In this document: one piece after another, positions 8,347-38,171 of the stretch
Numbering within the stretch: the stretch's first letter is position 1
Layout of the letters: each line of letters opens with the position of its first letter
Translations under genes and position numbers: made by a program
Notes under the pieces: model-generated
The model's database searches: none
What the model saw: only the letters and a program-made list of their open reading frames with translations
Told to the model about the DNA's origin: nothing
DNA from: a virus
IMG/VR virus record: IMGVR_UViG_3300042518_000099
Location: 1-40,793 of that record
Reading direction: 5' to 3' (one strand)
Length of the DNA: 40,793 nt

Positions 8347-8733
8347 TTAAACCTCTCTTACCCATTTCCTGGGCCTGAAACCCAACGCTTGAGCTTTGCG
8401 ATCCCAGCCTTTACGCCACGAATCAAAGCTGATAGTCCTTGCGCCACCTTCTCTCGCAATGCGGAGAACATGATCCATGCCTGCATCAAAATCTCCCTTG
8501 CCATAAGCGCACCAAATATGCAAATTATCGCCGATAGGCTGCAAAACAACAAAGCCGCAAGGATAAGTATCCTCAACAAAGACCCAAAGAAGTGATCGCC
8601 CTGCAAAACAGTCCGCGTAAATGTCTTCGGGTATCCATGCTTCTGGACTCTTTCTGAGAATGACTTCCAATCCCTGCCTAACGAACGGCCAGATCTTGCG
8701 AAGATTTTCCGGCTTAACGTATTGAACATTCAT
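8347..8733 (-). CDS. Small GNAT-like protein
   Basis: 128 residues. The layout (N-terminal helix, LWVFVEDTYPCGFVVLQP strands, then a helix with ARTISFDSWRKGW, and KAQALGFRPRK near the end) matches the shape of small GNAT acyltransferases, where a final xLGF segment follows the last helix. The acetyl-CoA loop is not convincing. Proteins of this kind are known next to tail and ejection genes of podoviruses and may be structural rather than catalytic. The start overlaps the upstream stop (ATGA). The function is inferred. Confidence 0.5.
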   Translation of the reverse strand: MNVQYVKPENLRKIWPFVRQGLEVILRKSPEAWIPEDIYADCFAGRSLLWVFVEDTYPCGFVVLQPIGDNLHIWCAYGKGDFDAGMDHVLRIAREGGARTISFDSWRKGWDRKAQALGFRPRKWVREV

Positions 8734-9512: not shown

Positions 9513-10960
9513 CTCAGCCCCTGCGGTACAACCATGACATCTATTCCAACCGCAGAAGTCCAGACCCCAGAAGGTCTTACCTGCAGCCGATGGTATGTTC
9601 CAGAAGAACGTAAGCCTATACGGTTGTCATCGTTTGCCGTGTAACTCGAACCCGTAAACTGAGCAACCTGGCCCAAACGCTTTCTCGACGAGATTTGCAC
9701 TGAGCACGATCCCGTATCAATCACGGGCCTTACTAGCGTCACTACGCTAGGTGTATCGTTGAGCGACAAATCAGGCGTAATGATGTTTGCCGTTAATGCC
9801 GACCCAGAAAAGGCCACAATCTTCGCGCCTAGCGTACCCGTAAGTAGGTTGGATGTGACCGTATACCCAAAGGAATCAAGGCTTGCAGGAAGCGAATCAA
9901 TGCTTCCGTAAGCGTCTAATTGCTCTAAGGTCAGGCCAGACGAAGAGGTTGTTGTGATAGCGGTCGAAGATGAGATCGTGTCTACATTCACCTCACCATA
10001 GGACCACTTATTAAGGTTGAAGTTGTAGATCAGGACGTTGGTTGACTGACTTGTCGTCTTAAAGCACCAGATAACGAGGTTTTTAAGCGGGTCAATCGCC
10101 GCACTCATCGTAGATAACTGCGATATATCCACGTTGTTGAAGAACCACCTATCTACCTTCTCGACAGAAATAGACTCAACTGCCTGACCATTGCAGCGAT
10201 AAAACCCATCATCAGACAAAAAGAACGACATGCCGCCATACTGGATGATCGAGTTGGGCTCCATACAACCCAAGCCCCTAGAGATCGTGTCGAACTGGAA
10301 CACGAGAGGGCTTCCAACGTAAGACATACGGACAACCGCACGATCCATGTACACAAGACCGTACTCACCACCCGTCAATCCCTTCACATGCCCACCGTCA
10401 GGAATGTCCTGGTAGTCAGACTGTGTGAGAGCGGATGGGGTCCAATCGGTTTCGTCGCCCAACGCGCACCATTCGACACGGTTAGGGTAAATCGTTGCCC
10501 CGTTGTTAAAGCCTGCGACCACAAAGTCTCTAACCGTAGTGACGTACCGAGACTTAGGCGCAGCAGCACCAAGGTCTGCAAAAAGGGTCGATGAGCCCAT
10601 GAGGTAGCCCTGGAGCCTGTCACCACCGTTAGCTGCAATCACTCGGTTGCCGAATTGGGTAAACCGCCACTTCTGATCCGATGGGGTTGTATAACCACCA
10701 GACTTTGATACGTCAGACAAAGCTAAGTTCGTTCCTAGCTTGAACAACTTCGTATCACCGCCAGCAAAGACCGTAACTGCTTCACTAGGTGCAGCAGCAG
10801 CAACAACCGAGTTAAGCGTTTCTGATGCTGCGTTAGACCACTCAGCAGGAGCAGGAAGCGGTCCGTATCCTACTTGTTGCGGAATGACGTTCTTAGCATC
10901 CACGAGCGCACCAGCCACGCCTGGCTGATCTGGTAACCACTCACCAAAGTTAACTCTCAT
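9509..10960 (-). CDS. Tail hub / stabilisation protein (P22 gp10-like)
   Basis: 483 residues. The start (MRVNFGEWLPDQPGVAGALV, then DAKNVIPQQVGYGP) and the beta-propeller-like repeats (KLFKLG, WRFTQFGNRVIAANG, YVTTVRDFVVAG, GLVYMDRAVVRMSYVG, MSFFLSDDGFYRCNG) fit the phage stabilisation protein family. This is the nozzle or hub of podovirus tails, like P22 gp10 and functionally T7 gp12. It closes the channel below the adaptor. It is coupled through ATGA overlaps to the adaptor gene upstream and the head-fibre-like gene downstream. Confidence 0.78.
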   Translation of the reverse strand: MRVNFGEWLPDQPGVAGALVDAKNVIPQQVGYGPLPAPAEWSNAASETLNSVVAAAAPSEAVTVFAGGDTKLFKLGTNLALSDVSKSGGYTTPSDQKWRFTQFGNRVIAANGGDRLQGYLMGSSTLFADLGAAAPKSRYVTTVRDFVVAGFNNGATIYPNRVEWCALGDETDWTPSALTQSDYQDIPDGGHVKGLTGGEYGLVYMDRAVVRMSYVGSPLVFQFDTISRGLGCMEPNSIIQYGGMSFFLSDDGFYRCNGQAVESISVEKVDRWFFNNVDISQLSTMSAAIDPLKNLVIWCFKTTSQSTNVLIYNFNLNKWSYGEVNVDTISSSTAITTTSSSGLTLEQLDAYGSIDSLPASLDSFGYTVTSNLLTGTLGAKIVAFSGSALTANIITPDLSLNDTPSVVTLVRPVIDTGSCSVQISSRKRLGQVAQFTGSSYTANDDNRIGLRSSGTYHRLQVRPSGVWTSAVGIDVMVVPQGLR

Positions 10961-11577
10961 CGTTTAGCAAGCGCCATCGCAAGAGGAACGCCCGAATACT
11001 GGCTCTCCTCGTCGGATCTCGTAAGCGCAGTGATCGCACGATCATACAAAACACCCCAGGTCTGCAACCGAGGGTCATTCATAAGATAAGGCTCAGCCTC
11101 GCCTAAAGCGCCGTACAAAAGCGCATCAGGGCAAGTCGTTAGGAAGAGGTTTGTTGTGTTGGAAGTCGAGAGAAAAGCAGGCGCTGCGTAGTAGAGGATC
11201 TTAATCGTGTAATTGCTGTCAGGAATTGGCGCAAGCTGAATGGTCGAACCGAGGATCGTGTAGAAAGCCGGTACACCACTCTCGTTCGTCCTGCCGTTCC
11301 TGATGAAGATACTCGGCGTTGCGAACGTGATCGGGAAGTCGGGATCAGAATCAACGTACACATCCCGCGCTTGCAGGAAGTCAGTAGGGAGGTTAATTGT
11401 TGCGCCACCACCTGTAGCCGTGACCGATGTTTGGGTAAGCATCTGTCGCAGGCGTAGATCTCTGCGTAGGCGTATTTCCGCGAGTTGGATGAAGTCAGGG
11501 ATCGCGGTAGTAAGATCATCTCTACTGAGATAATTAGCTATCGTCGTTTGCAGTTCGCTGTAAGTGCTTAGGGCCAT
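10957..11577 (-). CDS. Head-tail adaptor (SU10-type / tail tubular protein A-like)
   Basis: About 206 residues from ATG 11577 (MALSTYSELQTTIANYLSRD); an ATG three codons earlier (11586) is possible but has its GGAG only two bases away. An alpha-helical N-terminus (FIQLAEIRLRRDLRLRQM) precedes a beta-rich middle (INLPTDFLQARDVYVD, TIQLAPIPDSNYTIKILYYA) and a C-terminal helix pair with CPDALLYGALGEAEPYL. This pattern is well known for short-tailed-phage adaptors that sit under the portal. The gene lies between the capsid block and the tail hub, as expected. Confidence 0.75.
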   Translation of the reverse strand: MALSTYSELQTTIANYLSRDDLTTAIPDFIQLAEIRLRRDLRLRQMLTQTSVTATGGGATINLPTDFLQARDVYVDSDPDFPITFATPSIFIRNGRTNESGVPAFYTILGSTIQLAPIPDSNYTIKILYYAAPAFLSTSNTTNLFLTTCPDALLYGALGEAEPYLMNDPRLQTWGVLYDRAITALTRSDEESQYSGVPLAMALAKR

Positions 11578-12199
11578 ATTCGACATCGCTCCATCGATAT
11601 TCGTACGTCCCGATGTGTCCTATCTCAAGACTCAATTCGTGATCCACGAACGTCTGAATACCGTGATCTAGGGCTTTTACGCAGAAATGCACATCTTCGC
11701 CAATTAGACCACCCGCCCCCCATACTACATCAAACCAAGGTTGGGGCATAGCCTCAAACACAGATTTATGGGTTAGCACAACCCCAAAACCTACAGCAGT
11801 GACAGCCTCGATACCCTTCTTGCCTCTGCTCTCAATCTTCTCGAAGATCTCTTTGTCTTGATGGAAGTTAATCGCCGTAGGTAAAACGGGCTTTCGTCTC
11901 GTGACTGCGTTAACCCCAACGATCTGTTTGCCGTGAGCTAACAAACGCTCCAAGGTGTTCTTGGGGAATCTCATATCTGAGTCAACCCAGAGAATGTATT
12001 CCGCACCGTCTGCCAGCGCTTCTTTGGCTAGAGACTCGCGTTGAGAGAAGATCAGCGTGCCTGGTGCTGTGTAGAGCAATAAAGCACCGCCGTGTTTGCC
12101 GACCCGATTAGCACCGTCATAAGCAGCCAATCGAGCCATGTCAAAAGATGTGCCGGTCATCATCGTGTCCCTACATGGGACGCATAGAGCTACTTTCAT
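11534..12199 (-). CDS. GT-A fold glycosyltransferase
   Basis: About 221 residues from ATG 12199, with AGGA five bases upstream. It has the N-terminal strand MKVALCVPCRDTMMTG, then ILWVDSDMRFP (a DxD metal site of GT-A enzymes, near residue 75), IVGVNAVTRRKPVLP, and a later GEDVHFCVKALDHG segment typical of glycosyltransferase family 2 relatives. It probably transfers a sugar to a virion or host target; donor and acceptor cannot be read from sequence. It sits between the adaptor gene and a small conserved gene, overlapping the former by 44 bases and the latter by 4. Confidence 0.7.
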   Translation of the reverse strand: MKVALCVPCRDTMMTGTSFDMARLAAYDGANRVGKHGGALLLYTAPGTLIFSQRESLAKEALADGAEYILWVDSDMRFPKNTLERLLAHGKQIVGVNAVTRRKPVLPTAINFHQDKEIFEKIESRGKKGIEAVTAVGFGVVLTHKSVFEAMPQPWFDVVWGAGGLIGEDVHFCVKALDHGIQTFVDHELSLEIGHIGTYEYRWSDVEYGPKHLQRTANDDS

Positions 12200-12483
12200 A
12201 CTTTTCCTGGCCTCGTCCTGAAGTGTCTGTTTTCTGGGTCGTTCATCCACGCCCTGAATCTTTTCTCGTCAATCACCGCAAACCCACGCATGATGCCCTT
12301 GGCGTTTAGGTCATCAACCACAACAAAGGGAAGTTGTGCGTAGCGTGTCCATTCTCCCCATCGCTCACGCTCGTCTGTCGCGTTGTACAGGGCTTTGTTC
12401 TGCTCGACGATGTCAGTTATCTCTTGCGTTCTCTGGAACACAAACTGATCGTCGGTAGCGTGAAATGTTGTCTTTGTGCTCAT
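12196..12483 (-). CDS. Conserved small phage protein next to the capsid gene
   Basis: 95 residues, hydrophilic, with FRTRPGKV at the end and FVFQRTQEITDIVEQNKALY near the start. No known domain is recognised. The ATG comes directly after the U-tract of a terminator, so there is no Shine-Dalgarno sequence within 20 bases except the GGGAGG that forms the 5' arm of that hairpin. It overlaps the glycosyltransferase gene downstream (ATGA). The function is unknown. Confidence 0.6.
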   Translation of the reverse strand: MSTKTTFHATDDQFVFQRTQEITDIVEQNKALYNATDERERWGEWTRYAQLPFVVVDDLNAKGIMRGFAVIDEKRFRAWMNDPENRHFRTRPGKV

Positions 12484-12533: not shown

Positions 12534-13490
12534 TTAAGCAGACTTCAGATCCGCGAGGATACCGTGAGCTGCTTCGTTACGCATTTCCATCGTGAACTCG
12601 GCAAGGATCTGGGTCTTTTCAGAGTCACCAGTTTTTGCAAGTTCGTTCGTCTGGAACGGACGCAGGTAACCAATCGCTGCGTACTCAGGGTCAAGGATGA
12701 ACGCATCACGGCTACGAATGAAACGATCAGGTACAACAGAGATCGAACCAAAGTCGCTGAGATAAACGTCAGCCGCGCCGATGATGGTCGTAGGAGCATC
12801 CGAAGGAGCCATGTAACGCTGTGCTGCGATACCAGCAAAGGTAGATACAGTCTGCTTCAGTGCAGGACCAACCACGAGGATCTTGGGGCTGCCGCCAGAG
12901 GTGTAAACCTGCTGAACGCCATCCTTAAGGATTGCCTCGGTAAAGGTACGGGTTGTACCGTCCGAACGGGTCGAAACACCGATGGTGGTGGGATTAGCAC
13001 CGTCCGAGGTGTTGTAGTTCGAGTTGGTCTTGAGCCAAGAAAGCAACGAACCCATCTTACGAGCGGTCGATGCGCCACCAGCAGAACGGCCCTGGTTAGC
13101 AGAAATGATCGTCTCTTGGTCACGCTTGAGTTCCTGCGAAGCCTTCGAGAGCTGGTAAGCCTTCTCTGCGCGGCGACCTGCAAGATCAACAGCCATCATC
13201 GTGCCGGAAACCTGGATCGTCTTAGCAACGATCTGGGTATAGTTACCGAGACGGGTTGTGGGCGAAAGCGTTGCAGCCGTAGCATCGTCACCTTCAACCT
13301 GTGCGTTGTTGGTTGTTGCTGCTGCGAGGGTATCCGTCTGCCACTCGTGGTAAACATTGGTTGCCTTCGTGCGAGCAAGCGACGAAAGGATAGGGGTTTC
13401 TGTGGGGCTGATGTTGTAGATAACATCAGTCAAGTCCTCACGCTGACCGACAGCCGTGAAGGTTTGGTATGTACCTGAAGGGACAGACAT
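12534..13490 (-). CDS. Major capsid protein (SU10 / DUF5309 type)
   Basis: 318 residues, ATG with GGAG six bases upstream. The sequence has the features of the DUF5309 capsid family: YQTFTAVGQREDLTDVIYNI at the start, SPTETPILSSLAR, a long helix with DLAGRRAEKAYQLSKASQEL, RDQETIISANQGRS, and a C-terminal DPEYAAIGYLRPFQTNELAK strand. This is an HK97-fold protein forming the head shell. It lies just downstream of the scaffold-like gene and is followed by a terminator, which fits high, separately controlled expression. Confidence 0.88.
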   Translation of the reverse strand: MSVPSGTYQTFTAVGQREDLTDVIYNISPTETPILSSLARTKATNVYHEWQTDTLAAATTNNAQVEGDDATAATLSPTTRLGNYTQIVAKTIQVSGTMMAVDLAGRRAEKAYQLSKASQELKRDQETIISANQGRSAGGASTARKMGSLLSWLKTNSNYNTSDGANPTTIGVSTRSDGTTRTFTEAILKDGVQQVYTSGGSPKILVVGPALKQTVSTFAGIAAQRYMAPSDAPTTIIGAADVYLSDFGSISVVPDRFIRSRDAFILDPEYAAIGYLRPFQTNELAKTGDSEKTQILAEFTMEMRNEAAHGILADLKSA

Positions 13491-16256: not shown

Positions 16257-18224
16257 TTACCCTGGTATCTCGATGTTGGAAGTAATACCCGCGCCGACCT
16301 TCATTGCCTTCATCTGAGCCTCGGCCTCGAACTCCATCTTCTTAAGCTCTAGCTCGGCTATGGCCTTCTCTCTTGCAAGCTGAATGTCTGCCATTGCTTT
16401 CTGACGCTTGATCTCAATGTCTGCTTGAGCCTGCGCCATCATCATCTGAACCGCAGGATCTGGTCCTTGTTGCTGAGGTTGCGCAAGGGCTTGATCGACC
16501 TCTTGCGTGACTGGCTTGAAGAACTCAGCAGAATCCGCAAACCCTGCCGCTTCAACCAGTTTTCCGAGCGTTGCACGATATTGCGAGAGCGACACTAAAG
16601 GATTGTTTGGCCCCAGCATCTGGAGCATTTGCTCTTGTTTTGAGAGAACCATTGAAAGCATAGCCATCTTTTGCTCGATGTTGCCTGTCCCAAGACCCAC
16701 ATTCACTGAGACATCGTATTGGTTCGACCACTCTCTCGGATCGTACTGGACGTACTGCCCACGCATCCGAAGGATGACTGCCTTGTCCTGGTACTTGCAT
16801 AAGAGGTGTAAGAGTCCTTTGAATAAGTCTTTTACACCTGTCTCCGCAAAAACACGAGCAATAAGTTCGATCTTGCCTTGTGACGCTTGCGTGAGAGCCG
16901 CAATAGCCGCAGCAGTCACGTTCTGCAAGATGTTGGGGTCTAACCCTTGAGAAGCCTCTGTTAGGCCTGTTCTCTTGGCTTGTACCTGGTCTAGGTACTC
17001 TAAGAGCGGAAAGGCTTGCTGGCCTACAGGAGGTGTTTGTATGGGAACCAAAGCACCAGGGTTCTTGAGCCTGATAACACCACCAGGTGTAACGCTTAAG
17101 AGGTCATCCAGGTTGACCTGACCTTCCACAGCACCCATGCGGGTATTGTTCTGAAGGTACATATTGTCCAGCATCTGCCTCGTTACAGTAGTCTTGATAA
17201 GCTGGAGATCAACTGTACGATCAGCAGGGCAATCCCCAAAGAAGCGATGAGGGATCGGAATAGGACAGATAGAGTAAAACGGCACATAGTCGGTTTCTTC
17301 ATTCGCAAGTATCTCGTTTCCAGAGAAGTAAACCTGCCTTAGCTCCGCGATCCCATCTCCGTCATAGTCTGTCTTTAGGTAGCACTCGAACACCTCAACC
17401 GTCTGCATACTCTTATCGAGACTAGGCTCCATGAAGGGCTGCTCGTCTCGGTTGTATCGAGCAATGTACTCGGCAGAGAACTCAAGGTCGTTGTAGACCG
17501 GCAGGTTCATGATGATCTCGGCATCGAACCCCATCGCAATCAGGTCAGACCTCGTGATGAGTTTTCTATGCGCGACGAAAGGTGTGTCTCTTACGGTCTT
17601 GCCTGCCTTAGAGATCAAGAACTCCTCTGGAGGCACGTTCTCAACCTTAACCTTGCCTGCCTTGGTCTTTCTCATGAGAGCCACGTTATGGACACGCATG
17701 ATCTGCCCGTCCATCTCTTGCTCTATCGTCTCTTGACCTGCGATCTCCATCGTTCCATCAGACAGAAGCATTGCAAGTTCATCGTCGGTCAGGTTCGCGT
17801 ACTGCTCCTTCGTAACCGAAATGGAGTCATCCCAGTAAGCCTTGACGATCCCAACTTTCTGAAGGATCGCATCCTTGAACCAATCGTGCATGATCGCAAT
17901 ACCTGGGTTCTGTTTCATCAGCACCCAGTTGCAGTATTCGGTAGCCTGCTCTGCTAATGGCTCATCGCCTGGTCCTACAGGCTCGAACACACCGATCTGA
18001 TCCGCAGAGGTAAAGAGACGCATGAGAGGCGGCAGCATCCCGTCTACAGCCTCTGCGACCTCACCCGTGACAATCTGAGACCTGCCCTCGACCTCGTTGC
18101 CGTAGGGGTCCCTCATATACGCGGTAAGTGCGTTCTTGCGTTGCTCGACGGTCTCTGTCTCTAAGAAACCAATGGCGTTGTCGATCTCGCCTTGTAGGAT
18201 TGCTTTTAGCCGACCATCATCCAT
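16257..18224 (-). CDS. Portal protein (P22-type)
   Basis: 655 residues, a normal length for P22-like portals. Recognisable segments are RKNALTAYMRDPYGNEVEGR followed by SQIVTGEVAEAVDGMLPPLM near the start, a wing region with DWFKDAILQKVGIVKAYWDD, a central NMYLQNNTRMGAVEGQVNLD segment, GLDPNILQNVTAAAIAALTQ near the channel helix, and a C-terminal helical tail rich in Q, A, E and K. It forms the dodecameric DNA gate at one head vertex and binds TerL and the adaptor. The gene follows terL directly (stop TAA next to ATG). Confidence 0.9.
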   Translation of the reverse strand: MDDGRLKAILQGEIDNAIGFLETETVEQRKNALTAYMRDPYGNEVEGRSQIVTGEVAEAVDGMLPPLMRLFTSADQIGVFEPVGPGDEPLAEQATEYCNWVLMKQNPGIAIMHDWFKDAILQKVGIVKAYWDDSISVTKEQYANLTDDELAMLLSDGTMEIAGQETIEQEMDGQIMRVHNVALMRKTKAGKVKVENVPPEEFLISKAGKTVRDTPFVAHRKLITRSDLIAMGFDAEIIMNLPVYNDLEFSAEYIARYNRDEQPFMEPSLDKSMQTVEVFECYLKTDYDGDGIAELRQVYFSGNEILANEETDYVPFYSICPIPIPHRFFGDCPADRTVDLQLIKTTVTRQMLDNMYLQNNTRMGAVEGQVNLDDLLSVTPGGVIRLKNPGALVPIQTPPVGQQAFPLLEYLDQVQAKRTGLTEASQGLDPNILQNVTAAAIAALTQASQGKIELIARVFAETGVKDLFKGLLHLLCKYQDKAVILRMRGQYVQYDPREWSNQYDVSVNVGLGTGNIEQKMAMLSMVLSKQEQMLQMLGPNNPLVSLSQYRATLGKLVEAAGFADSAEFFKPVTQEVDQALAQPQQQGPDPAVQMMMAQAQADIEIKRQKAMADIQLAREKAIAELELKKMEFEAEAQMKAMKVGAGITSNIEIPG

Positions 18225-19481
18225 TTAGACCACCCAAGATACGTTAGGTTTCAGAGGCTTGGACCAACTTGTTGTCTCATTCATCCCGACCGCTAAATAC
18301 CGAAATGCGTCTGCTGCGTGAGATGCCCAATCGTGAAGAGGCTTATCCCAGTAGACTTGACGCTTATCATCGTATTGTCTCCGATAATTGCGTAGCGCGT
18401 CCACACCGCGCTTAGTCTTAGGGTCGAACCAACAGTAAGGAATAAGCCTTCTCACGGCCTGTATCCCATCGTCCACGCCCATCCTTGGCACGATTGTGAT
18501 GTTTAGCCCTGCCTCTTGTAGAAGTTCGAGCCTTGATCTACCTGAGCCTAATTCTCTGACTTGTACGTCATGCGGAAGTAACTGCTCTGCAAGCTCGTAG
18601 TTGTTCGTCCTGAGCCAGTTCACATACCAATCTAACCCCTGCCCGTGGTTCTCAACGAAGTCAATAAGCCTTGTTTCTAAACCTACCCTCTGGCAAACCC
18701 AGATCGCAGTGGAGTCGCCTATCCCTAAGTCCCAGGCGCAATAAGTCTTGGCTATTCCATCCCTTGGGATCTCTCCGAATCGCTCAGACGGTAACTCATT
18801 AAGAATTTGTCCGTAGTAAGCACCTTCGATAGCCGAGTCGAAGGAACACTCAAACTCTTGCAGGTACTTATCGTCTCCCATCTCTGACCTAGCGGCATCG
18901 AGTTCAGATTGAGGGATAAGACCTGTTTCTGACGCTCTGAACTCAAGCATGGCCCAATCGTTATGCTCTGCTGCATGGTCTCTCAGGGTCTTGAAGTGAT
19001 TTGCGCCTTTTGGGGTTCCAAGGAATAAGGCCCATCCCATCCTATCGGACAAGGCTGGACGAACCACCTCCGACCAGATACGCGGGTCTTGATCGCCAAA
19101 TTCGTCGAATACAACGCCATCGAAATACTGTCCTCGCAGAGAGTCTGGGTTATCAGATCCTGCAAGCTGAATCCTTCTGCCCCAGAAATCAACCCTAAGT
19201 TCCGCAATATTCGCAGTGGCGTTGAGGGGTTGGGTAAACTTGAGGAGGTAATCCCAGATAACTCGTTTGGTTTGAGAGTAGGTAGGACCGATGAACGCAT
19301 ATCTCGGAGCCTCCTTGTTGTTTTCTATCGCTGCTCTGATGAGATGGTTGACAGCACTGACTGACTTTCCCATGCGTCTGTGCGCGACAACAACAGCAAA
19401 ACGCTTGTCTGATAGCGCATTGTGGATCTTTAGCTGCTGCTCCCTTGGCGCATACGGTATGACTATTCGGGTTGCGCCCAT
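18225..19481 (-). CDS. terL: Terminase large subunit
   Basis: 418 residues. The ATPase part has the Walker A-type motif AHRRMGKS (33-40), Walker B with the catalytic acid in VVFDEFGD (123-130), and the coupling motif GTPKG (155-159). The RNase H-like nuclease has acids in WDLGIGDST (D251, D256), PHD (D305) and HDWASHAADAFRY (D391). It cuts concatemeric DNA and drives it through the portal. The gene overlaps the small-subunit-like gene by 19 bases and has no clear ribosome site, so it is probably translated by coupling. Confidence 0.95.
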   Translation of the reverse strand: MGATRIVIPYAPREQQLKIHNALSDKRFAVVVAHRRMGKSVSAVNHLIRAAIENNKEAPRYAFIGPTYSQTKRVIWDYLLKFTQPLNATANIAELRVDFWGRRIQLAGSDNPDSLRGQYFDGVVFDEFGDQDPRIWSEVVRPALSDRMGWALFLGTPKGANHFKTLRDHAAEHNDWAMLEFRASETGLIPQSELDAARSEMGDDKYLQEFECSFDSAIEGAYYGQILNELPSERFGEIPRDGIAKTYCAWDLGIGDSTAIWVCQRVGLETRLIDFVENHGQGLDWYVNWLRTNNYELAEQLLPHDVQVRELGSGRSRLELLQEAGLNITIVPRMGVDDGIQAVRRLIPYCWFDPKTKRGVDALRNYRRQYDDKRQVYWDKPLHDWASHAADAFRYLAVGMNETTSWSKPLKPNVSWVV

Positions 19482-20733: not shown

Positions 20734-20807
20734 TTCTTGACCTTTTTGGGTTGTAGAGGGATACCTACTTTTCGGTCGTACCTAATAGGAACCGGAGGAA
20801 CCTTCAT
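20730..20807 (-). CDS. Possible micro-gene, 25 residues
   Basis: This frame reads MKVPPVPIRYDRKVGIPLQP and ends in KKVKK. Both ends are coupled: its ATG overlaps the stop of the glycosyltransferase gene (ATGA) and its TGA overlaps the start of the cysteine-rich gene (ATGA). It fills an otherwise empty gap exactly, and its basic end resembles those of the neighbouring small proteins. It may encode a peptide or simply carry ribosomes from one gene to the next. Confidence 0.5.
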   Translation of the reverse strand: MKVPPVPIRYDRKVGIPLQPKKVKK

Positions 20808-21496
20808 TCGGTAGGGAGATGGTAGTGCCTTGCTATCCCTGGTTCGTTTTTCCACATCCATCGTGAAGCCTCCATGAGGTTTTTACGGTCATCCTTGCCG
20901 ACTGTCTGAGAGCCAGCGTGATGAACGTAAGCCCTTGATACAAAATGCCTAAAGTCTAATACCGTAAGTGTATGACAAAAGACGTTGTCTGAGAACCAAT
21001 TTATAGGCGGAAACCTGACCTGACTAAAAGCCTCCTTTGAGACGTAGGCAAAGATAGGCGCAATAACCGAGGCTTCCCTGATCGTCTCTTCCTCTGCCCA
21101 TTTCATCCCGTTTCTTGGGCCAGACTCATACCGGATGTTCTGGGTATCCAGAATAAAGTCAGACCTGCAACCAATAACACCCAATTTATGCCCTGCGTCC
21201 TTAAGATGCTGGACATCCTCACAAAGCAATCTATACGAGTCAGGAGTCAGGCATATATCGTCGTTGGCTATGATGACTTCATCGTAATGCTGGAAGGCAT
21301 CGTCCATGATCCTGTTGTATGCGTCACCGAAGTTACTCGACGAGTTGAGTACCCATTTGTAAATTCGTGGGTCCATTGTCTCGGACCTGCTCGACAGATA
21401 AACAGGCGCTTCTTTGGCGTATAGACTGATGCTCGACAGCGTGATTTCAAGGCTTGGCGATCCTGTTGTGCAGATGAGAATCGGTAACTTTTTCAT
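20804..21496 (-). CDS. Glycosyltransferase-like protein
   Basis: About 230 residues from ATG 21496, preceded by GGAGGAGT. Its N-terminus (KLPILICTTGSPSLE) and the DEVIIANDDICLTPDSYRLL segment, with an NDD metal-site-like motif near residue 82, follow the GT-A pattern. RFPPINWFSDNVFCHTLTVL and AYVHHAGSQTVGKDD fit the acceptor side and the final His of family 2-type enzymes. The substrate is unknown. It overlaps the end of another glycosyltransferase-like gene by about 50 bases, so the two are probably made together. Confidence 0.65.
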   Translation of the reverse strand: MKKLPILICTTGSPSLEITLSSISLYAKEAPVYLSSRSETMDPRIYKWVLNSSSNFGDAYNRIMDDAFQHYDEVIIANDDICLTPDSYRLLCEDVQHLKDAGHKLGVIGCRSDFILDTQNIRYESGPRNGMKWAEEETIREASVIAPIFAYVSKEAFSQVRFPPINWFSDNVFCHTLTVLDFRHFVSRAYVHHAGSQTVGKDDRKNLMEASRWMWKNEPGIARHYHLPTE

Positions 21497-22145
21497 ACTC
21501 CTCCATTCTGTGATGGGCAACCACCTGAAAGTATTCGTTGTTCATGAGTGACTTGTTGCAAACATTGACTTCTAAACCATGTTCTGACGCGACAATCGGG
21601 AATGAGAGCTGGTCTTGTAAGCTCCACTTCATCATCTCCTCCCACCATGCTTGGTTGGCTCTAGGATTGATGTAAGACCGCTTCCAACAGATAACCCCAC
21701 CTGCGATAAGACCGCCGTTCTCAGGCCATCCTAAGTCCCTGTAGTGCTCAACCTGAGCCAAGATGGGTTGATCCCTGTACTTAAGCATGTCATGGCACTC
21801 TTGGGCTTCTTCGTAGATGCACGTTCTCCAAGGGTGTTGAAACGCTGCCATCGTATCTCCGGCCTGCTCGACCATGTACTCCACAAACTTAGCGCTCGTA
21901 ATCCGTATGGACCCGTCCACCCAGATCACATAGTCCTCGTCAAACTCCAACTTGTCAGGAAAGACTTTGTACCACTTAGCTTCCATCCTGGGATCAGAGA
22001 ACCGTCTCGTGGTTACGATCTGCTTCCAGCCCTGATGAGGTTTAGCCTCATCGACAATCGCGTAGAAGTTCGTAGCAACAGACTGCCTGACCGCGTAGTG
22101 CAGCGGGTCATAACTCCCGAAGATGGATGTGTAGACAGCAATCAC
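21447..22145 (-). CDS. DUF616-like glycosyltransferase, GTG start
   Basis: About 232 residues from GTG 22145. VYTSIFGSYDPLHYAVRQ, then VTTRRFSDPRMEAKWYKVFP, YVIWVDGSIRI (metal-binding D.S site) and MAAFQHPWRTCIYEEAQECH follow the pattern of the DUF616/TOD1-type glycosyltransferase family. A frame extension to GTG 22178 exists, but it runs through a terminator hairpin and lacks a ribosome site. The GTG follows eight T of that terminator directly. It is the first gene of the leftward unit that includes the second glycosyltransferase. Confidence 0.65.
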   Translation of the reverse strand: MIAVYTSIFGSYDPLHYAVRQSVATNFYAIVDEAKPHQGWKQIVTTRRFSDPRMEAKWYKVFPDKLEFDEDYVIWVDGSIRITSAKFVEYMVEQAGDTMAAFQHPWRTCIYEEAQECHDMLKYRDQPILAQVEHYRDLGWPENGGLIAGGVICWKRSYINPRANQAWWEEMMKWSLQDQLSFPIVASEHGLEVNVCNKSLMNNEYFQVVAHHRMEEYEKVTDSHLHNRIAKP

Positions 22146-25989: not shown

Positions 25990-26053
25990 CTGGGCACTAT
26001 GCGCGCTATTGGGGATTTGCTACGGAACACTGCTCTTCCTGTTCATAAAGTAA
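25922..26053 (+). CDS. Possible small membrane protein in an overlapping frame
   Basis: 43 residues from ATG 25922, which has AGGG seven bases upstream. After a polar part (TTNNSWNNRNLNLTKYKPTR) comes one strong membrane segment (WALCALLGICYGTLLFLFI) and a final K. Half of it overlaps the 44-residue gene in another frame. It fills the gap before the annealing-protein gene. The membrane segment and ribosome site argue that it is real. Confidence 0.5.
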   Translation: MTTNNSWNNRNLNLTKYKPTRSDWALCALLGICYGTLLFLFIK

Positions 26054-26064
26054 AGGAGCTAAAC

Positions 26065-26595
26065 ATGAAATTCGCTGAGTTAAACAAAATCAACGTCAAC
26101 AGCAAGATCGAGAAGAAAAACAACCTCTCGTATCTATCCTGGGCTTGGGCTGTAGAGCAACTTTTGCTCAACGATCCGAGTGCTACGTGGGAGTACAAGC
26201 CTCACCAAATGTGGGGCGAAACAGTCATGGTGTTCTGCGAGGTCAAAGCATTTGGAGTTTCTCGCACTGCCCAACTTCCGGTTATGGACCACAGAAACAA
26301 GGCGATCTCTAATCCTGATGCTTTTGCAGTCAATACGGCTATGCAAAGGTGTTTAGCAAAGGCAATAGCTTTACACGGCATCGGTTTGTATATCTATGCT
26401 GGAGAAGATCTTCCTTCAGAGGAAAAGGTCGATGAGCTTGAGGCCTACAAGTCAAAACTCGAAGCAGCAGAGTCTTTAGACGCGCTTAAGGCTGAGTTCT
26501 CTCCGGGCTACAAAGCCATGAAAGACAAGCCAGAAATAAAAGAACTCGTCGCTGTTTACGAAGCCAAGAAGAAAGCACTTACGGAAGTCAAATGA
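26065..26595 (+). CDS. DUF1071 single-strand annealing protein
   Basis: 176 residues from ATG 26065, with AAGGAG seven bases upstream. The N-terminus INVNSKIEKKNNLSYLSWAW, then PDAFAVNTAMQRCLAKAIAL and HGIGLYIYAGEDL, is the DUF1071 signature. This family is grouped with phage single-strand annealing proteins related to Rad52/ERF. It should pair complementary ssDNA made by the exonuclease encoded further on, promoting end joining or concatemer formation. The C-terminus is helical and charged. It is coupled to the next gene by an ATGA overlap. Confidence 0.82.
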   Translation: MKFAELNKINVNSKIEKKNNLSYLSWAWAVEQLLLNDPSATWEYKPHQMWGETVMVFCEVKAFGVSRTAQLPVMDHRNKAISNPDAFAVNTAMQRCLAKAIALHGIGLYIYAGEDLPSEEKVDELEAYKSKLEAAESLDALKAEFSPGYKAMKDKPEIKELVAVYEAKKKALTEVK

Positions 26596-26945
26596 ACCTA
26601 GACCGCTTTGAAGAAGGCTTGATCGACGACATCCAGACTGACCGCTGCAAGAAACTCTTGTGGTCGGTCATCAACCTGGCAGTAGAAGATGCTTGCAGGG
26701 CTCCGTACAACAAAAAGCCAAGCACCGAGTCGATAACCGCCATGAGGTTTTTAATCGGGAACGGCAAGGAAGCTGACGTTGATTCTTGGCTTATGTGGTT
26801 AGACGTAAACGGTCCGGTGTTTAGAAGGAGACTCTTGGAAGCTATGTTCTCGGATTACCACGATAAGTTCCCAGACATGGCAAGAAGGGCCTTTAGAGCA
26901 AATTACAACTGGTGGAGGCTCAATGCGACTGATTTTAACGACTGA
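26592..26945 (+). CDS. Conserved helical protein in the recombination operon
   Basis: 117 residues, all helical by pattern (FEEGLIDDIQTDRCKKLLWS, then VINLAVEDACRAPYNKKPST, ending RRAFRANYNWWRLNA). I do not recognise a family. Its fixed place between the annealing protein and NinB, coupled to both by overlaps of 4 and 23 bases, suggests a role in DNA recombination or replication. That is inference only. Confidence 0.6.
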   Translation: MNLDRFEEGLIDDIQTDRCKKLLWSVINLAVEDACRAPYNKKPSTESITAMRFLIGNGKEADVDSWLMWLDVNGPVFRRRLLEAMFSDYHDKFPDMARRAFRANYNWWRLNATDFND

Positions 26946-27342
26946 GAATGACCGTAGGAAGGCTATAGAGGCTCTACAAGCCGCTGAATTGGGTTACATG
27001 GTAACTATTACCAAACCTCCTCGCACAGCGGCTCAAAATCGGTTTTATTGGGCCATCCTTACTGCGTGTTCTGAACAGCTTATGAACCAGGAATACACAC
27101 AGGACATCTGGCACGAGTGGGCTAAGACAAGATTTCTTCCTACAAGGATCGTAGACCTACCTAGCGGCCAGGTGAAAGAGATAGAACCGAGCACCGCTTC
27201 TCTCACGATCTCTGAGTTCTCTGATCTTGTAGAGCAGCTCCTACAGTACGCGTTGGAAAAAGGCTTGATTTGGACTGATGAGATGAAAGACGCTGAACTA
27301 GATTTAAGGAAGATCAATGTACATAAACAAAAAGCTGCTTGA
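26923..27342 (+). CDS. ninB: NinB-family recombination protein
   Basis: 139 residues. The signature TENDRRKAIEALQAAELGYM, then VTITKPPRTAAQNRFYWAIL, and a late SLTISEFSDLVEQLL match NinB (Orf of lambda), which binds ssDNA and SSB and can help load annealing proteins. GGAGG lies six bases before the ATG. It lies in one operon with an annealing protein, an exonuclease and an SSB-like protein, exactly the expected partners. Confidence 0.85.
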   Translation: MRLILTTENDRRKAIEALQAAELGYMVTITKPPRTAAQNRFYWAILTACSEQLMNQEYTQDIWHEWAKTRFLPTRIVDLPSGQVKEIEPSTASLTISEFSDLVEQLLQYALEKGLIWTDEMKDAELDLRKINVHKQKAA

Positions 27343-27610
27343 GGCTTGCAGGCACATCCCTTGCGGATCGTGTTTCGCCGAAGATGGAACGGTTGTCGCC
27401 GCACACAGGAACCAAGGAAAAGGCATGGGCATCAAGGTATCTGATGCTTTAGTAGCATCCCTGTGCTTTCGTTGTCACACATACTTAGATCAAGGAAAGG
27501 ATATGTCTCGTGAAGAACGTCGAGACTTCTGGAACCAAGCGTATATCAACACGATGCAGGCAATGATCGAACGAGGATTTCTAAAGGTGCAAAATGGAAC
27601 AAAGAACTGA
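27317..27610 (+). CDS. YbcO-like HNH-type recombination endonuclease
   Basis: 97 residues. CGSCFAEDGTVVAAHRNQGK, then GMGIKVSDALVASLCFRCHT and YLDQG, form a treble-clef metal site (CxxC, AH, CxxCH). This follows the DUF1364/YbcO pattern of small HNH-like nucleases in phage recombination regions. The family is thought to cut branched DNA or act in place of other resolvases. It overlaps NinB by 26 bases and the exonuclease gene by 17. Confidence 0.75.
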   Translation: MYINKKLLEACRHIPCGSCFAEDGTVVAAHRNQGKGMGIKVSDALVASLCFRCHTYLDQGKDMSREERRDFWNQAYINTMQAMIERGFLKVQNGTKN

Positions 27611-28190
27611 GGATTGGTACAAAGCAAGACTAGGCCACGTAACGGCTTCTAGGGCTTCAGACGCGATTGCAAAGCAAGGTACGGCTACACGTAGGAACTA
27701 TGCAATCCAGCTCGTCACAGAGCGTTTAACGGGCTTACAGACCGATTCTTTTACGAACGCGGCTATGCAGTGGGGTACAGAGCAAGAACCTATCGCTAGG
27801 GTCGCTTATGAGCAGGCTACAGGCTCGATTGTGGAGCAGACAGGCTTTCACAAGCACAAGAGCATAGAATGGCTTGGAGCCTCTCCTGATGGGTTTGTAG
27901 GCTCAGGTCTGATCGAGATCAAGTGTCCTAACAGCAACACTCACGTTGATTATTTACTCGCAAAGGAGGTTCCCACTAAGTACAAAAGCCAAATGCTCAC
28001 TCAAATGCTAGTGACAGGTAAAACATGGTGCGACTTTGTTAGCTTCGACCCAAGGCTTCCCGATCACTTGCAGTTATTCATTGTTAGATACGAGCCAAAG
28101 CCAGAGGAGTTCAAGATCATTGAGCTTCAACTCACGAACTTTCTAGCCGAGGTGAACGAAATGGAGAAATCGCTATGCCAAAAGAACTAA
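27594..28190 (+). CDS. YqaJ / lambda-type exonuclease
   Basis: 198 residues, the usual length. The YqaJ viral recombinase fold shows QRTEDWYKARLGHVTASRAS at the start, GTEQEP (acid in 63-65), LGASPDGFVG (D99) and LIEIKCPN (E108, K110), the PD-(D/E)XK catalytic set. It should resect dsDNA 5' ends and hand ssDNA to the DUF1071 protein. The ATG lies in the end of the YbcO-like gene, with a weak AAAGGTG site. Confidence 0.9.
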   Translation: MEQRTEDWYKARLGHVTASRASDAIAKQGTATRRNYAIQLVTERLTGLQTDSFTNAAMQWGTEQEPIARVAYEQATGSIVEQTGFHKHKSIEWLGASPDGFVGSGLIEIKCPNSNTHVDYLLAKEVPTKYKSQMLTQMLVTGKTWCDFVSFDPRLPDHLQLFIVRYEPKPEEFKIIELQLTNFLAEVNEMEKSLCQKN

Positions 28191-32855: not shown

Positions 32856-33320
32856 TTAACCTCTTGCAAAAGAACCGTGAAATTTATCCCGAGCCTCAAC
32901 AGCAACTAACTCGGCAAGCTCTAAATCATCATGCCAACCAAAGAACTTGCGTTTTCTGTTAACAGACATTTCAACAAGCCATTTTTGGCATTTCTTGTCC
33001 CATCTAACATTTTTGACGCCACTGGTGTTGTTCTTATGAATCTTCCTATTTAAGCAGTTTTGCTGTTGCGTTGCTTCCCTAAGATTTTCAATCTTATTGT
33101 CTGACCTATCATTGTTGATATGGTCAATAATTTTTGGCGCATATCCGTGGTGATACACAAATATTAATCTGTGTAATGCATACACCACGCCTTCTACTTT
33201 CATTCGTATATATCTATGATGATTTGTAATTGGCGTGAATTTTGGCTGGTAGCCTTGCTTTGCATACAGAAACCCATCACGATACTCAAACAACTCTTTT
33301 AGGCGTTCTTGAGTAACCAT
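32856..33320 (-). CDS. HNH homing endonuclease with AP2-like tail
   Basis: 154 residues. The HNH core is YALHRLIFVYHHGYAPKIID, then HINNDRSDNKIENLREATQQ, with the usual N after it. The C-terminal part (SGVKNVRWDKKCQKWLVEMS, then RKFFGWHDDLELAE) is an AP2-like DNA-binding domain. Both ends meet neighbours in TAATG, each behind a GAGG site, so it sits as a free-standing cassette inside the fibre cluster. Homing endonucleases of this type spread by cutting related phages. Confidence 0.88.
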   Translation of the reverse strand: MVTQERLKELFEYRDGFLYAKQGYQPKFTPITNHHRYIRMKVEGVVYALHRLIFVYHHGYAPKIIDHINNDRSDNKIENLREATQQQNCLNRKIHKNNTSGVKNVRWDKKCQKWLVEMSVNRKRKFFGWHDDLELAELVAVEARDKFHGSFARG

Positions 33321-33922
33321 TACGCCTCCAGCCTTAAGCCTGTTAAATCCATCTCTTCCCCGACGACACCGACAGGAAAGGTATTAAAACTGAGTGAGAT
33401 TCTTGTGTCCTCGCCTTTGACTTCAGGAACCATATGTGTAAGCGACGAAGGAAAGAGAATCAGCCTGCCTGCATAAGCCTCAAACCACCAACTCTCAGAG
33501 TTATACGGGTTCCACTGGTCGGGAGGAAACTTGATCTGCTGCCAGCCATCTTTGTAGAAGTAAATCCTGTCATCAGGGTTGGTCTGAACATAGAACACAC
33601 CTGAGATGTAACTATTAGGATGAGCGTGTTTGTGGTGGTACTGACCTTGCTCGCTATAGTTGCACCAGCTTTGCGTGACTCTCAGACTTACATTGTGCTT
33701 AGGGTTGACTGTGGACTTGAAGTATTCGCCGACAGCATCTTCAATGAACGATCTCAGGTTCGTCAGTACAGGGCTACGAAGTACGAAGTTATCAGTGCTT
33801 GTGGTGTTGCCTTGATTCGGCCTTGTCTGTAACTCACGGATGAAGAACAACTCCTCATCGGACAAGGGTCTACCGAGTTCAGCAAAGCCTACAGGTGTCG
33901 GAAAGAGATTATGCAATTGCAT
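33320..33922 (-). CDS. 2OG-Fe(II) oxygenase-like protein
   Basis: About 200 residues from ATG 33922, with AGGA eight bases upstream. QSWCNYSEQGQYHHKHAHPN, then SYISGVFYV, supplies the H.H iron ligands. GRLILFPSSLTHMVPEVKGE and DTRISLSFNTF supply the distal His and the 2-oxoglutarate-binding Arg, as in the 2OG-FeII_Oxy_5 family. It may hydroxylate a virion protein or other target; prolines in the collagen-like fibre nearby are one candidate. That link is inference. Confidence 0.72.
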   Translation of the reverse strand: MQLHNLFPTPVGFAELGRPLSDEELFFIRELQTRPNQGNTTSTDNFVLRSPVLTNLRSFIEDAVGEYFKSTVNPKHNVSLRVTQSWCNYSEQGQYHHKHAHPNSYISGVFYVQTNPDDRIYFYKDGWQQIKFPPDQWNPYNSESWWFEAYAGRLILFPSSLTHMVPEVKGEDTRISLSFNTFPVGVVGEEMDLTGLRLEA

Positions 33923-34163
33923 CTTCAATTTCCTTTTGCTTGATGCCCATCTCTTCTAGTTGCTCAGGTAGCCAAATCGTAGGGATGCTGTCCTCAAACT
34001 CTCTGATCTTGTCTATCACCCAATAAACTTCCTCAATACTCGGACAAGGTCTAGGATCATCCCAGCGTGTAAAGACGTTGTTAGAGATTTCCCACTTAGC
34101 ACCCGGACGAAGCAGGTGCATAGCTGTGTCTATTCCCAGAAACTTATAAACTTTTGTAGTCAT
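33909..34163 (-). CDS. Conserved small phage protein
   Basis: 84 residues. KVYKFLGIDTAMHLLRPGAK, then WEISNNVFTRWDDPRPCPSI and IPTIWLPEQLEEM, is a well-conserved pattern in cyanophages and other environmental phages, usually beside fibre or oxygenase genes. No function is known. It overlaps the oxygenase-like gene start by 14 bases. Confidence 0.7.
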   Translation of the reverse strand: MTTKVYKFLGIDTAMHLLRPGAKWEISNNVFTRWDDPRPCPSIEEVYWVIDKIREFEDSIPTIWLPEQLEEMGIKQKEIEDAIA

Positions 34164-36614: not shown

Positions 36615-38171
36615 TTAATACAAAGTTGCTAGCGCATTGGGTTTGAGTATGTACCAACTTTGATCGGTTGGAACGGTTACAGACACGCCAGAGGCTAACG
36701 TAATAGGACCAACCCCAACATTAGCGCCCGTGATCGTTAAGTCACTACCTCCACCACCTCCTCCGGCAATCGTTACTGTCACGGCATTGCCCGCGGCAGT
36801 CGCGCTTACGCCAGACCCAACGAAGTTGAAAGAAGAAACCGCGGCTGTAATCTGTGTGCCTTCATCCGAGACCGGAATGTTTGCTGTAGTGCCAGCAGGT
36901 CCGGTCGGGCCTGTAGGTCCCGCGACAGAAGAAGCCGAACCAGTTGGACCTGTGGGACCGGAAGTTCCCGTTGGTCCGGTAGGGCCAGCCACAGTAGATG
37001 CCGCGCCAGTGGGACCAGTGGGTCCAGCGATTCCCTGAGCGCCCGTGGGTCCAGTAGGTCCTGCAACCGTAGATGCCGCTCCGGTAGGTCCTGTTGGTCC
37101 GGTAGATCCCTGTGCGCCTGTTGGGCCAATAACACCTTGATCGCCAGTAGGACCCGTTGGACCTGCAACACCTTGCGGTCCTGTTGGGCCTGCCACGGTA
37201 GACGCTGCACCCGTTGGCCCTGTAGGCCCAGTTGGACCCATGCCAGCAGAAATCGCGACTGTTACCGCATCACCCACGTTTGTAGCAGTAACGCCGGTTC
37301 CAGTGAAATCGAAAGAAGTAACGTTAGTCGTTAACGTTGTTCCTTCATCTTTTACCGTAATACTTGAACCGCTTCCAGTTGGCCCGGTTGGGCCTGCTAC
37401 TCCAGTAGGTCCTGTTGGTCCCGCAACGGTAGAAGCGGCTCCTGTTGGTCCCGTAGGCCCAAAATCGCCAGTTGGACCTGTCGGCCCCGCTACCGTTGAA
37501 GCCGCGCCAGTTGGACCTGTCGGGCCTGATGTTCCATTAGCACCTGTTGGACCAGTAGGACCCGCTACCGTTGAGGCTGCACCTGTGGGACCGGTTGGAC
37601 CAAAATCTCCTGTTGGTCCTGTGGGTCCCGCGACTGTGGACGCAGCGCCGGTCGGGCCAGTTGGACCTACGGAACCAGCATTACCTGTGGGACCGGTTGG
37701 CCCCGCAGCACCAGTATCACCAGTGGGGCCAGTTGGGCCTGAAACTCCACTTGCTCCCGTTGGACCAGTAGGGCCAAAGTCACCAGTGGGACCAGTAGGT
37801 CCTGATACCCCGGCGGGTCCCGTTGGTCCTGTAATAGAAACACCAGTGGGACCAGTAGGCCCTATGTCTCCAGTCGGTCCTGTTGACCCGGCATTGCCTG
37901 TCGGACCGGTTGGGCCAGATAACCCTGTTGGTCCTGTCGGTCCGCTGCCACCAGTGGGGCCAGCCGATCCAGTTGGTCCTGTTGAGCCAGTAGGTCCTGT
38001 GGGTCCTCCGGGTGTTCCTGCAGCTCCAGTGGGTCCCGTTGCGCCTGTAGGGCCAATTGCTCCGGTGGGGCCTCCGGGTGTCCCCGCTGGTCCGGTCGGG
38101 CCAATAATACCTTGATCTATCGTGAGGGCAATCTGGTTTCCAGACGTGACAACTAAGTTAACGTCGCTCAA
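36615..38171 (-). CDS. Collagen-like tail fibre protein, TTG start
   Basis: 518 residues. The TTG at 38171 lies in a TTGA overlap with the upstream gene and has GGGGTG six bases upstream. A short N-part ([20 protein letters not shown]) is followed by some 250 residues of GPTGPTG-type triplets, then a beta insert ([20 protein letters not shown]), a second triplet region, a second similar insert ([20 protein letters not shown]) and a C-terminal tip ending [13 protein letters not shown]. It should form a long trimeric collagen-like stalk. The triplet DNA is highly repetitive and recombination-prone. Confidence 0.85.

Follow-up and report, generated by a model that had tools for sequence, protein, structure and literature searches.

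Two glycosyltransferases and a probable third in an uncultured short-tailed phage, one of them fixed in the head-tail cassette, suggest sugar on the phage's own particles

Introduction

Why should a short-tailed phage carry three genes that resemble glycosyltransferase genes, two of them overlapping and the third among its head-tail genes, and which molecule would receive the sugar? We addressed this question in a single virus record of 40,793 bases with 50% G+C, the whole of which is called the window here. The ends of the window showed no exact repeat between 12 and 200 bases long, and the record may be a fragment. A preliminary description had placed the overlapping genes at 20804-22145 and the third gene at 11534-12199, and open reading frames were indeed found there on the minus strand. 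The virion, the host surface and the phage DNA had all been proposed as targets.

Phage glycosyltransferases are common, and glycosylation of virions has been reported. For tailed phages, it has been described for a few mycobacteriophages (PMC11256854, PMC12363180). Enzymes of Che8 (gp110), Corndog (gp38) and Myrna are reported to glycosylate capsid and tail-tube proteins (PMC12363180, PMC11256854, PMC12619734), and glycosylation of the mycobacteriophage virion changes its recognition by antibodies (PMC11256854, PMC12363180). In STIV, the glycosyltransferase A197 is essential and has been proposed to modify the glycosylated coat protein (PMC4187194, PMC10551542).

Results

Genome context

The protein family scans took in 40 of 50 chosen window genes, the other 10 each encoding at most 114 amino acids. 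In Pfam, the late genes matched a portal protein (16257..18224, PF23899), a major capsid protein (12534..13490, PF17236, 7e-102) and a head-tail adaptor (10957..11586, PF24175, 4e-37), all of the SU10 type and all on the minus strand. This gene set confirmed the earlier placement of the third gene among head-tail genes. The large subunit of the terminase (18225..19481, minus strand) matched phrog_2, and the overlapping pair is located upstream of this gene in the same orientation. The nearest relatives of the window were contigs in viral_contigs, and a capsid search of annotated phages returned Manatee Spring genomes and Methylophilales phage Venkman on top. Venkman, an isolate, is without GT3, the gene in the head-tail block described below.

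Some other features of these genomes were recorded. A plus-strand recombination module at 25999-28190 encoded a Sak annealing protein, NinB, a YbcO-like protein (below cut-off) and a YqaJ recombinase domain. The tail block contained a small conserved protein (8347-8733, minus strand) that matched phrog_610 and phrog_10333 only, both of unknown function; its counterpart in MW202481 (30351, 41% identity) carries an acetyltransferase annotation. A 60-kb record, IMGVR_UViG_3300047553_000096 (L309-L311), contained, one after the other, two extensive sets of these phage genes that have diverged from each other; the record is either chimeric in its assembly or a true concatenation.

Predicted structure of GT3

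The gene in the head-tail block, GT3 (11534..12199, minus strand), encodes 221 amino acids from an ATG start, with a GTG frame extending to 12250. Its best PHROG match was phrog_1574 (1e-17), a family labelled as being of unknown function. The protein scored below the curated Pfam cut-offs of both Glycos_transf_2 (PF00535, 17.8 vs 23.3 bits) and Anp1 (PF03452, 22.9 vs 28.8 bits), and thus it is related to these families in fold and filed in neither. In an alignment of 25 GT3 sequences, 21 of which were 37-48% identical to the window protein, D73 and D75 (DxD), G167-E168-D169 (GED) and H195-x-G197 were invariant throughout (25/25). The structure model built from this alignment had a mean pLDDT of 89.8 and a pTM of 0.87, and it gave 236 fold matches in the PDB at E ≤ 0.001.

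The closest solved fold was that of STIV A197 (PDB 2c0n), with a Z score of 19.9 and an RMSD of 2.3 over 170 aligned residues. The model could also be superimposed on the glycosyltransferase domain of the lysyl hydroxylase LH3 (Z of 19.0, RMSD of 2.9, 182 residues), Mnn9 (Z of 18.0, RMSD of 3.0, 184 residues), mimivirus R699 (Z of 17.0, RMSD of 2.8, 171 residues) and COLGALT1 (Z of 16.4, RMSD of 3.3, 185 residues). Proteins are the substrates of two of these enzymes, LH3 and COLGALT1; function cannot be read from a shared fold. In a sequence search, the GT3 profile matched Mnn9 (7e-05) and A197 (3e-04). GT3 resembles the Anp1/Mnn9 mannosyltransferases (PF03452), which are among its nearest folds and give the best sequence match of its profile, but it scores below the cut-off of the family. 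Mnn9 is a Golgi membrane enzyme. None of the three window proteins showed a clear membrane segment (maximum Kyte-Doolittle value of 1.31 over 19 residues).

Like A197, GT3 is a small stand-alone viral enzyme of predicted GT-A fold, with 221 residues compared to 191 in the solved chain of A197. However, the two proteins were only 15% identical over the alignment, and STIV, unlike the phage carrying GT3, is an archaeal virus with a double-jelly-roll coat protein. The confident model, the fold matches and the invariant motifs indicate a GT-A fold in which the metal-binding motif is intact. On its model and fold matches, GT3 is confirmed as a glycosyltransferase-like protein with predicted activity.

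The slot of GT3 in the head-tail cassette

GT3 lies in a slot with the gene order capsid, 95-amino-acid protein, GT3 and head-tail adaptor. The 95-amino-acid protein (12196..12483, minus strand) matched phrog_3982, labelled as unknown function, and its gene overlaps GT3 by 4 nt. Neighbors were counted in 80 close loci and in 80 distant loci fetched by the GT3 sequence alone, using only loci with room for the neighbor in question. Among the close loci, the 4-nt overlap was found in 80/80, the 95-amino-acid gene directly upstream of GT3 in 72/72, the major capsid gene within 800 nt upstream in 58/58, and the adaptor gene directly downstream in 75/75. The corresponding counts for the distant loci were 63/72 for the 95-amino-acid gene, 51/57 for the capsid gene and 70/77 for the adaptor gene.

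The exceptions among the distant loci were inspected individually. Five of the nine misses of the 95-amino-acid gene (L209, L255, L256, L258 and L261) were over-long frame calls of GT3 with the gene in place, L218 had the gene 437 nt away, and L240, L241 and L284 were without it. Of the six capsid misses, L214, L216 and L218 had the capsid gene just past 800 nt, and it was missing from the expected place in L240, L241 and L284 (of the 57 loci with room). The seven adaptor misses included L224 and L225, which are 243-nt frame overlaps; in L218 and L226, the adaptor gene was located about 3.2 kb from GT3.

A reverse sample consisted of the 80 loci closest to Venkman, fetched via the adaptor alignment. 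The slot was empty in 59 of them and held GT3 in 16, two more had GT3 directly upstream of the adaptor gene at the contig start, and two were too short. In the last locus (L323, 4620-5000), the slot was taken by a frame that, read by eye, resembled an HNH endonuclease. Within the adaptor-fetched sample, the slot is empty or contains GT3, with this one exception. Many phages of the same lineage have no GT3 in an otherwise intact slot, and thus this type of capsid does not depend on glycosylation.

Inheritance and selection of GT3

The 235 loci were reduced to 82 representatives for an adaptor tree (51 with GT3 and 31 empty), leaving out L176, loci with GT3 not adjacent to the adaptor, loci with an ambiguous slot state and adaptors shorter than 170 amino acids. 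On this quick tree, whose sample was shaped by the queries, the presence of GT3 required five changes, three of them forced by well-supported branches, a rough count, given the query-driven sample and the long branches of several rows. With shuffled labels, the mean was 25 changes, and a count as low as five did not occur in 500 shuffles. The GT3 and adaptor distances of the 51 carriers were closely correlated (Mantel r of 0.903), and no correlation as high was obtained in 999 permutations. The adaptors of GT3-carrying phages averaged 45% identity.

The dN/dS ratios relative to the window were calculated from ungapped, near-full-length matches with at least 70% identity and dS of 0.05-1.2. The median ratio was 0.043 for GT3 (n = 56), compared to 0.057 for the capsid protein (n = 44) and 0.072 for the adaptor (n = 56), showing purifying selection on GT3. 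The medians of the other two genes were 0.055 for GT2, for which these limits left only close sequences (n = 13), and 0.176 for GT1 (n = 63), which was by this measure the least constrained of the three. In its behavior, GT3 resembles a core head gene and an old, stable resident of the head-tail cassette, mostly co-inherited with the adaptor and under a constraint like that of the capsid protein. The earlier view that the gene had been inserted inside the structural block was right about its position; its behavior is that of a long-standing resident, not of a recent insertion.

The overlapping GT2-GT1 pair

The upstream gene of the pair, GT2 (21447..22145, minus strand), encodes about 232 amino acids from a provisional start codon, and a GTG frame extends to 22178. 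It cleared the Pfam cut-off of TOD1_MUCI70 (PF04765, DUF616) with 54.9 vs 21.4 bits and matched the glycosyltransferase family phrog_26101 (8e-07), and D77-G78-S79 was invariant in 12/12 sequences. The protein was 34% identical to a glycosyltransferase of Synechococcus phage S-SCSM1 over 66% of its length, and no relatives were confirmed in genome_contigs. Plant members of the family have been studied in mucilage polysaccharide synthesis. GT2 is confirmed as glycosyltransferase-like by its Pfam family assignment.

The overlap of GT2 with GT1 was exactly 50 nt in all 86 readable loci, each with the ATG of GT1; these include 10 second fetches of the same contig and so represent 76 distinct places. 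In the remaining 5 of 91 loci, GT1 begins within the first three bases of the locus. A reading of GT2 as an accessory beside a commoner GT1 (19 vs 94 hits) proved wrong and was dropped, since GT2 is found wherever the contig reaches (86/91 loci) and is just more diverged.

GT1 (20804..21496, minus strand) is an orphan protein of 230 amino acids with an ATG start, and a longer TTG frame extends to 21520. At the limits applied, the window protein had no family match in Pfam, PHROG or NCBIfam, and the top Pfam match among its 16 relatives was Transketolase_C with an E value of 0.01. A search of annotated phages gave nothing at E 1e-3, and relaxing the limit to E 10 added just two weak matches (E 5), both to an XkdF gene; a search of PDB sequences gave nothing below E 0.9. 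No relatives were confirmed in genome_contigs, and in an alignment search of viral contigs the best 80 of 107 confirmed relatives were all at least 78% identical. Among the relatives listed from annotated phages, genome_contigs and viral contigs, none lay beyond the close group. The GT1 profile gave nothing against the E. coli transferases WcaA and WcaE. Its comparison with the GT3 profile scored 19.6, a value that column shuffling also reaches (150 shuffles, mean of 15.1, maximum of 22.8, P of 0.058). Altogether, the sequence and profile searches showed no significant similarity of GT1 to any glycosyltransferase family.

The layout of its motifs pointed to a GT-A fold. NDD (78-80), SDN (169-171) and HHAG (192-195) were invariant in 16/16 sequences. 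A strand ends in the NDD motif and is followed by SDN...FC (169-174) and then HHAG, and, compared by eye, the spacings resemble the ones between DSD, GED...FC and HIG in GT3. The GT1 model was of low confidence (pLDDT of 57), and Foldseek returned no match for it at E ≤ 0.001. The best VIA-align match (5ggi, Z of 5.4, RMSD of 5.1, 160 aligned residues) was below the meaningful level of the tool; the first 13 rows of this weak list were glycosyltransferases or the nucleotidyltransferase IspD. Judged from its motif layout and this weak model, GT1 is quite probably a glycosyltransferase, with a putative GT-A fold. The preliminary description had counted three glycosyltransferases, of which GT2 and GT3 hold, the former by family and the latter by model and fold, and GT1 is a probable one with no family match.

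All three genes were present in 9 of 13 longer related records, the GT2 of one of these (G008) being cut by the contig start. The other four (G006, G009, G011 and G013) end before the site of GT1 and GT2, and GT3 was present in all 13. Within the close group of the window, carrying all three genes appears to be a fixed trait. The public relatives MW202462, MW202496 and MW202711 contained GT3 and gave no match to GT1 or GT2 at E 1e-5. Upstream of its terminase, MW202462 (L173:27644-28706) encodes an overlapping FkbM methyltransferase and DXD glycosyltransferase. This different pair lies in the general region of GT2-GT1 in the window, suggesting that the region may exchange sugar-related pairs. 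The glycosyltransferase genes therefore form two units, GT2-GT1 upstream of the terminase and GT3 in the head-tail cassette.

Discussion

Two clear glycosyltransferases and a probable third are encoded in the window, and the fixed slot of GT3 suggests that sugar is placed on the phage's own particles. We consider it somewhat more probable than otherwise that GT3 adds sugar to a putative acceptor protein of the virion while the particle is being assembled, and that GT2-GT1 lengthen this glycan or modify another target. As a soluble enzyme, GT3 would take a single sugar from a nucleotide-sugar of the host and attach it, in the cytoplasm and during head-tail assembly, to a virion protein that has just been synthesized; the capsid protein, the 95-amino-acid protein, the adaptor or another late protein may serve as the acceptor. 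GT2 and GT1, an overlapping pair that is probably translationally coupled, would act as a second unit, either elongating the glycan on the virion or glycosylating a second virion protein. The preliminary description had seen a hint of a virion target in the position of the head-block gene, and this reading is strengthened by the fixed slot, the mostly shared inheritance with the adaptor and the capsid-like constraint of GT3. The conserved place in the late cassette could, however, stem from regulation instead of from the target.

The enzymes, above all GT2-GT1, might instead act late in infection on the surface polysaccharide of the host (LPS or capsule), so that superinfection or the re-adsorption of progeny to debris is blocked. 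Such a role has been proposed for phage glycosyltransferases, for example in Gratiaviridae. The different overlapping pair of MW202462 represents the kind of swapping expected of surface-modifying genes, and the low constraint on GT1 points the same way. However, the absence of a clear membrane segment from GT1-3 is not what such a role would lead one to expect, and Pfam scans of 40 window proteins recognized no GtrA-type flippase, so that neither feature of gtrABC-type serotype conversion was found. Furthermore, the GT3 slot is fixed across phages with adaptors as divergent as those described above. Modification of the host surface, as proposed earlier, is on the whole a minority possibility, and for GT2-GT1 it stays a serious rival to action on the virion. 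A role for GT3 in structure or assembly, with the GT-A fold kept and catalysis lost or not needed, is unlikely. Its obligate place in the assembly cassette and its capsid-like constraint would fit such a role, and the fold matches of GT3 include H3, an envelope protein of vaccinia virus with the fold of a glycosyltransferase. However, the DxD, GED and His-x-Gly motifs are invariant down to 37% identity, as expected for an active enzyme, and the slot is empty in many relatives.

Glycosylation of the phage DNA against restriction, in a T4-like or TET-type manner, had also been suggested. Phage DNA glycosyltransferases are known, and a "TET-associated glycosyltransferase" of Ralstonia phage phiRSL1 ranked 49 among the viral fold matches of GT3. 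The window also encodes a 2OG-Fe(II) oxygenase in the fiber region (33320-33928, minus strand; PF13759, TIGR02466). However, this oxygenase is of the 2OG-FeII_Oxy_5/TIGR02466 type and was found in the records of only 5 of 13 relatives, and G003, G005, G007 and G008 carry the glycosyltransferases without it. In the 40 of 50 genes scanned, no enzyme that hydroxylates or hydroxymethylates bases was recognized, nor was a hydroxymethylase, a TET/JBP-type oxygenase, a base kinase or a cytosine methyltransferase. DNA glycosyltransferases would, in addition, be expected beside replication genes and not head genes. On the genes scanned, DNA glycosylation by these enzymes is thus quite unlikely, and the earlier suggestion found no support. 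Most improbable of all is a collagen-like tail fiber (36615-38171, minus strand) as the target, its threonines being O-glycosylated as in Bacillus BclA with the oxygenase taking part. The fiber of the window is rich in Gly-Pro-Thr triplets, the oxygenase lies 2.7 kb away, and the collagen enzymes LH3 and COLGALT1 are among the near folds of GT3. However, fold similarity is silent on the acceptor. The fiber was not found in the 13 related records, some of which cover its region partly (e.g., G010), or in 8 public stretches; no collagen stretch of at least six triplets was present in the 13 longer relatives or in 7 public relatives, and GT3 was present in 13/13 and 3/7 of these, respectively. 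The fiber was therefore dropped as a general target, since it was not found in these relatives that keep GT3, some of them covering its region in part. An LH3-like oxygenase-glycosyltransferase pathway was also dropped, the oxygenase being absent from the four records named above, which have all three glycosyltransferases. Neither the fiber nor the oxygenase tracks with the glycosyltransferases.

Glycosylation of a virion protein by GT3 would resemble what mycobacteriophage enzymes are reported to do, and the gene arrangement differs. In one F-cluster mycobacteriophage, the glycosyltransferase genes are near the 3' end of the genome, as opposed to GT3 inside the head cassette (PMC11256854). 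In the literature searched, a limited library represented by titles and the starts of abstracts, no glycosyltransferase fixed between capsid and adaptor genes was described, nor was a function for phrog_1574. Nor did these titles and abstracts show a glycosyltransferase that is a stable member of the head-tail cassette, constrained like the capsid protein, across a group of uncultured phages.

More tentatively, GT3 could represent a widespread class of capsid-cassette glycosyltransferases, in which sugar addition is built into the joining of head and tail across a large uncultured group of podoviruses and the single gene in the slot is gained or lost in evolution, and GT1 could represent a family absent from the libraries searched. 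Relatives with and without GT3 in an otherwise intact slot already provide a natural comparison. If the proposed role of GT3 is true, sugar-coated virions would be commoner than isolates suggest, and the unlabelled family phrog_1574 would gain a testable function.
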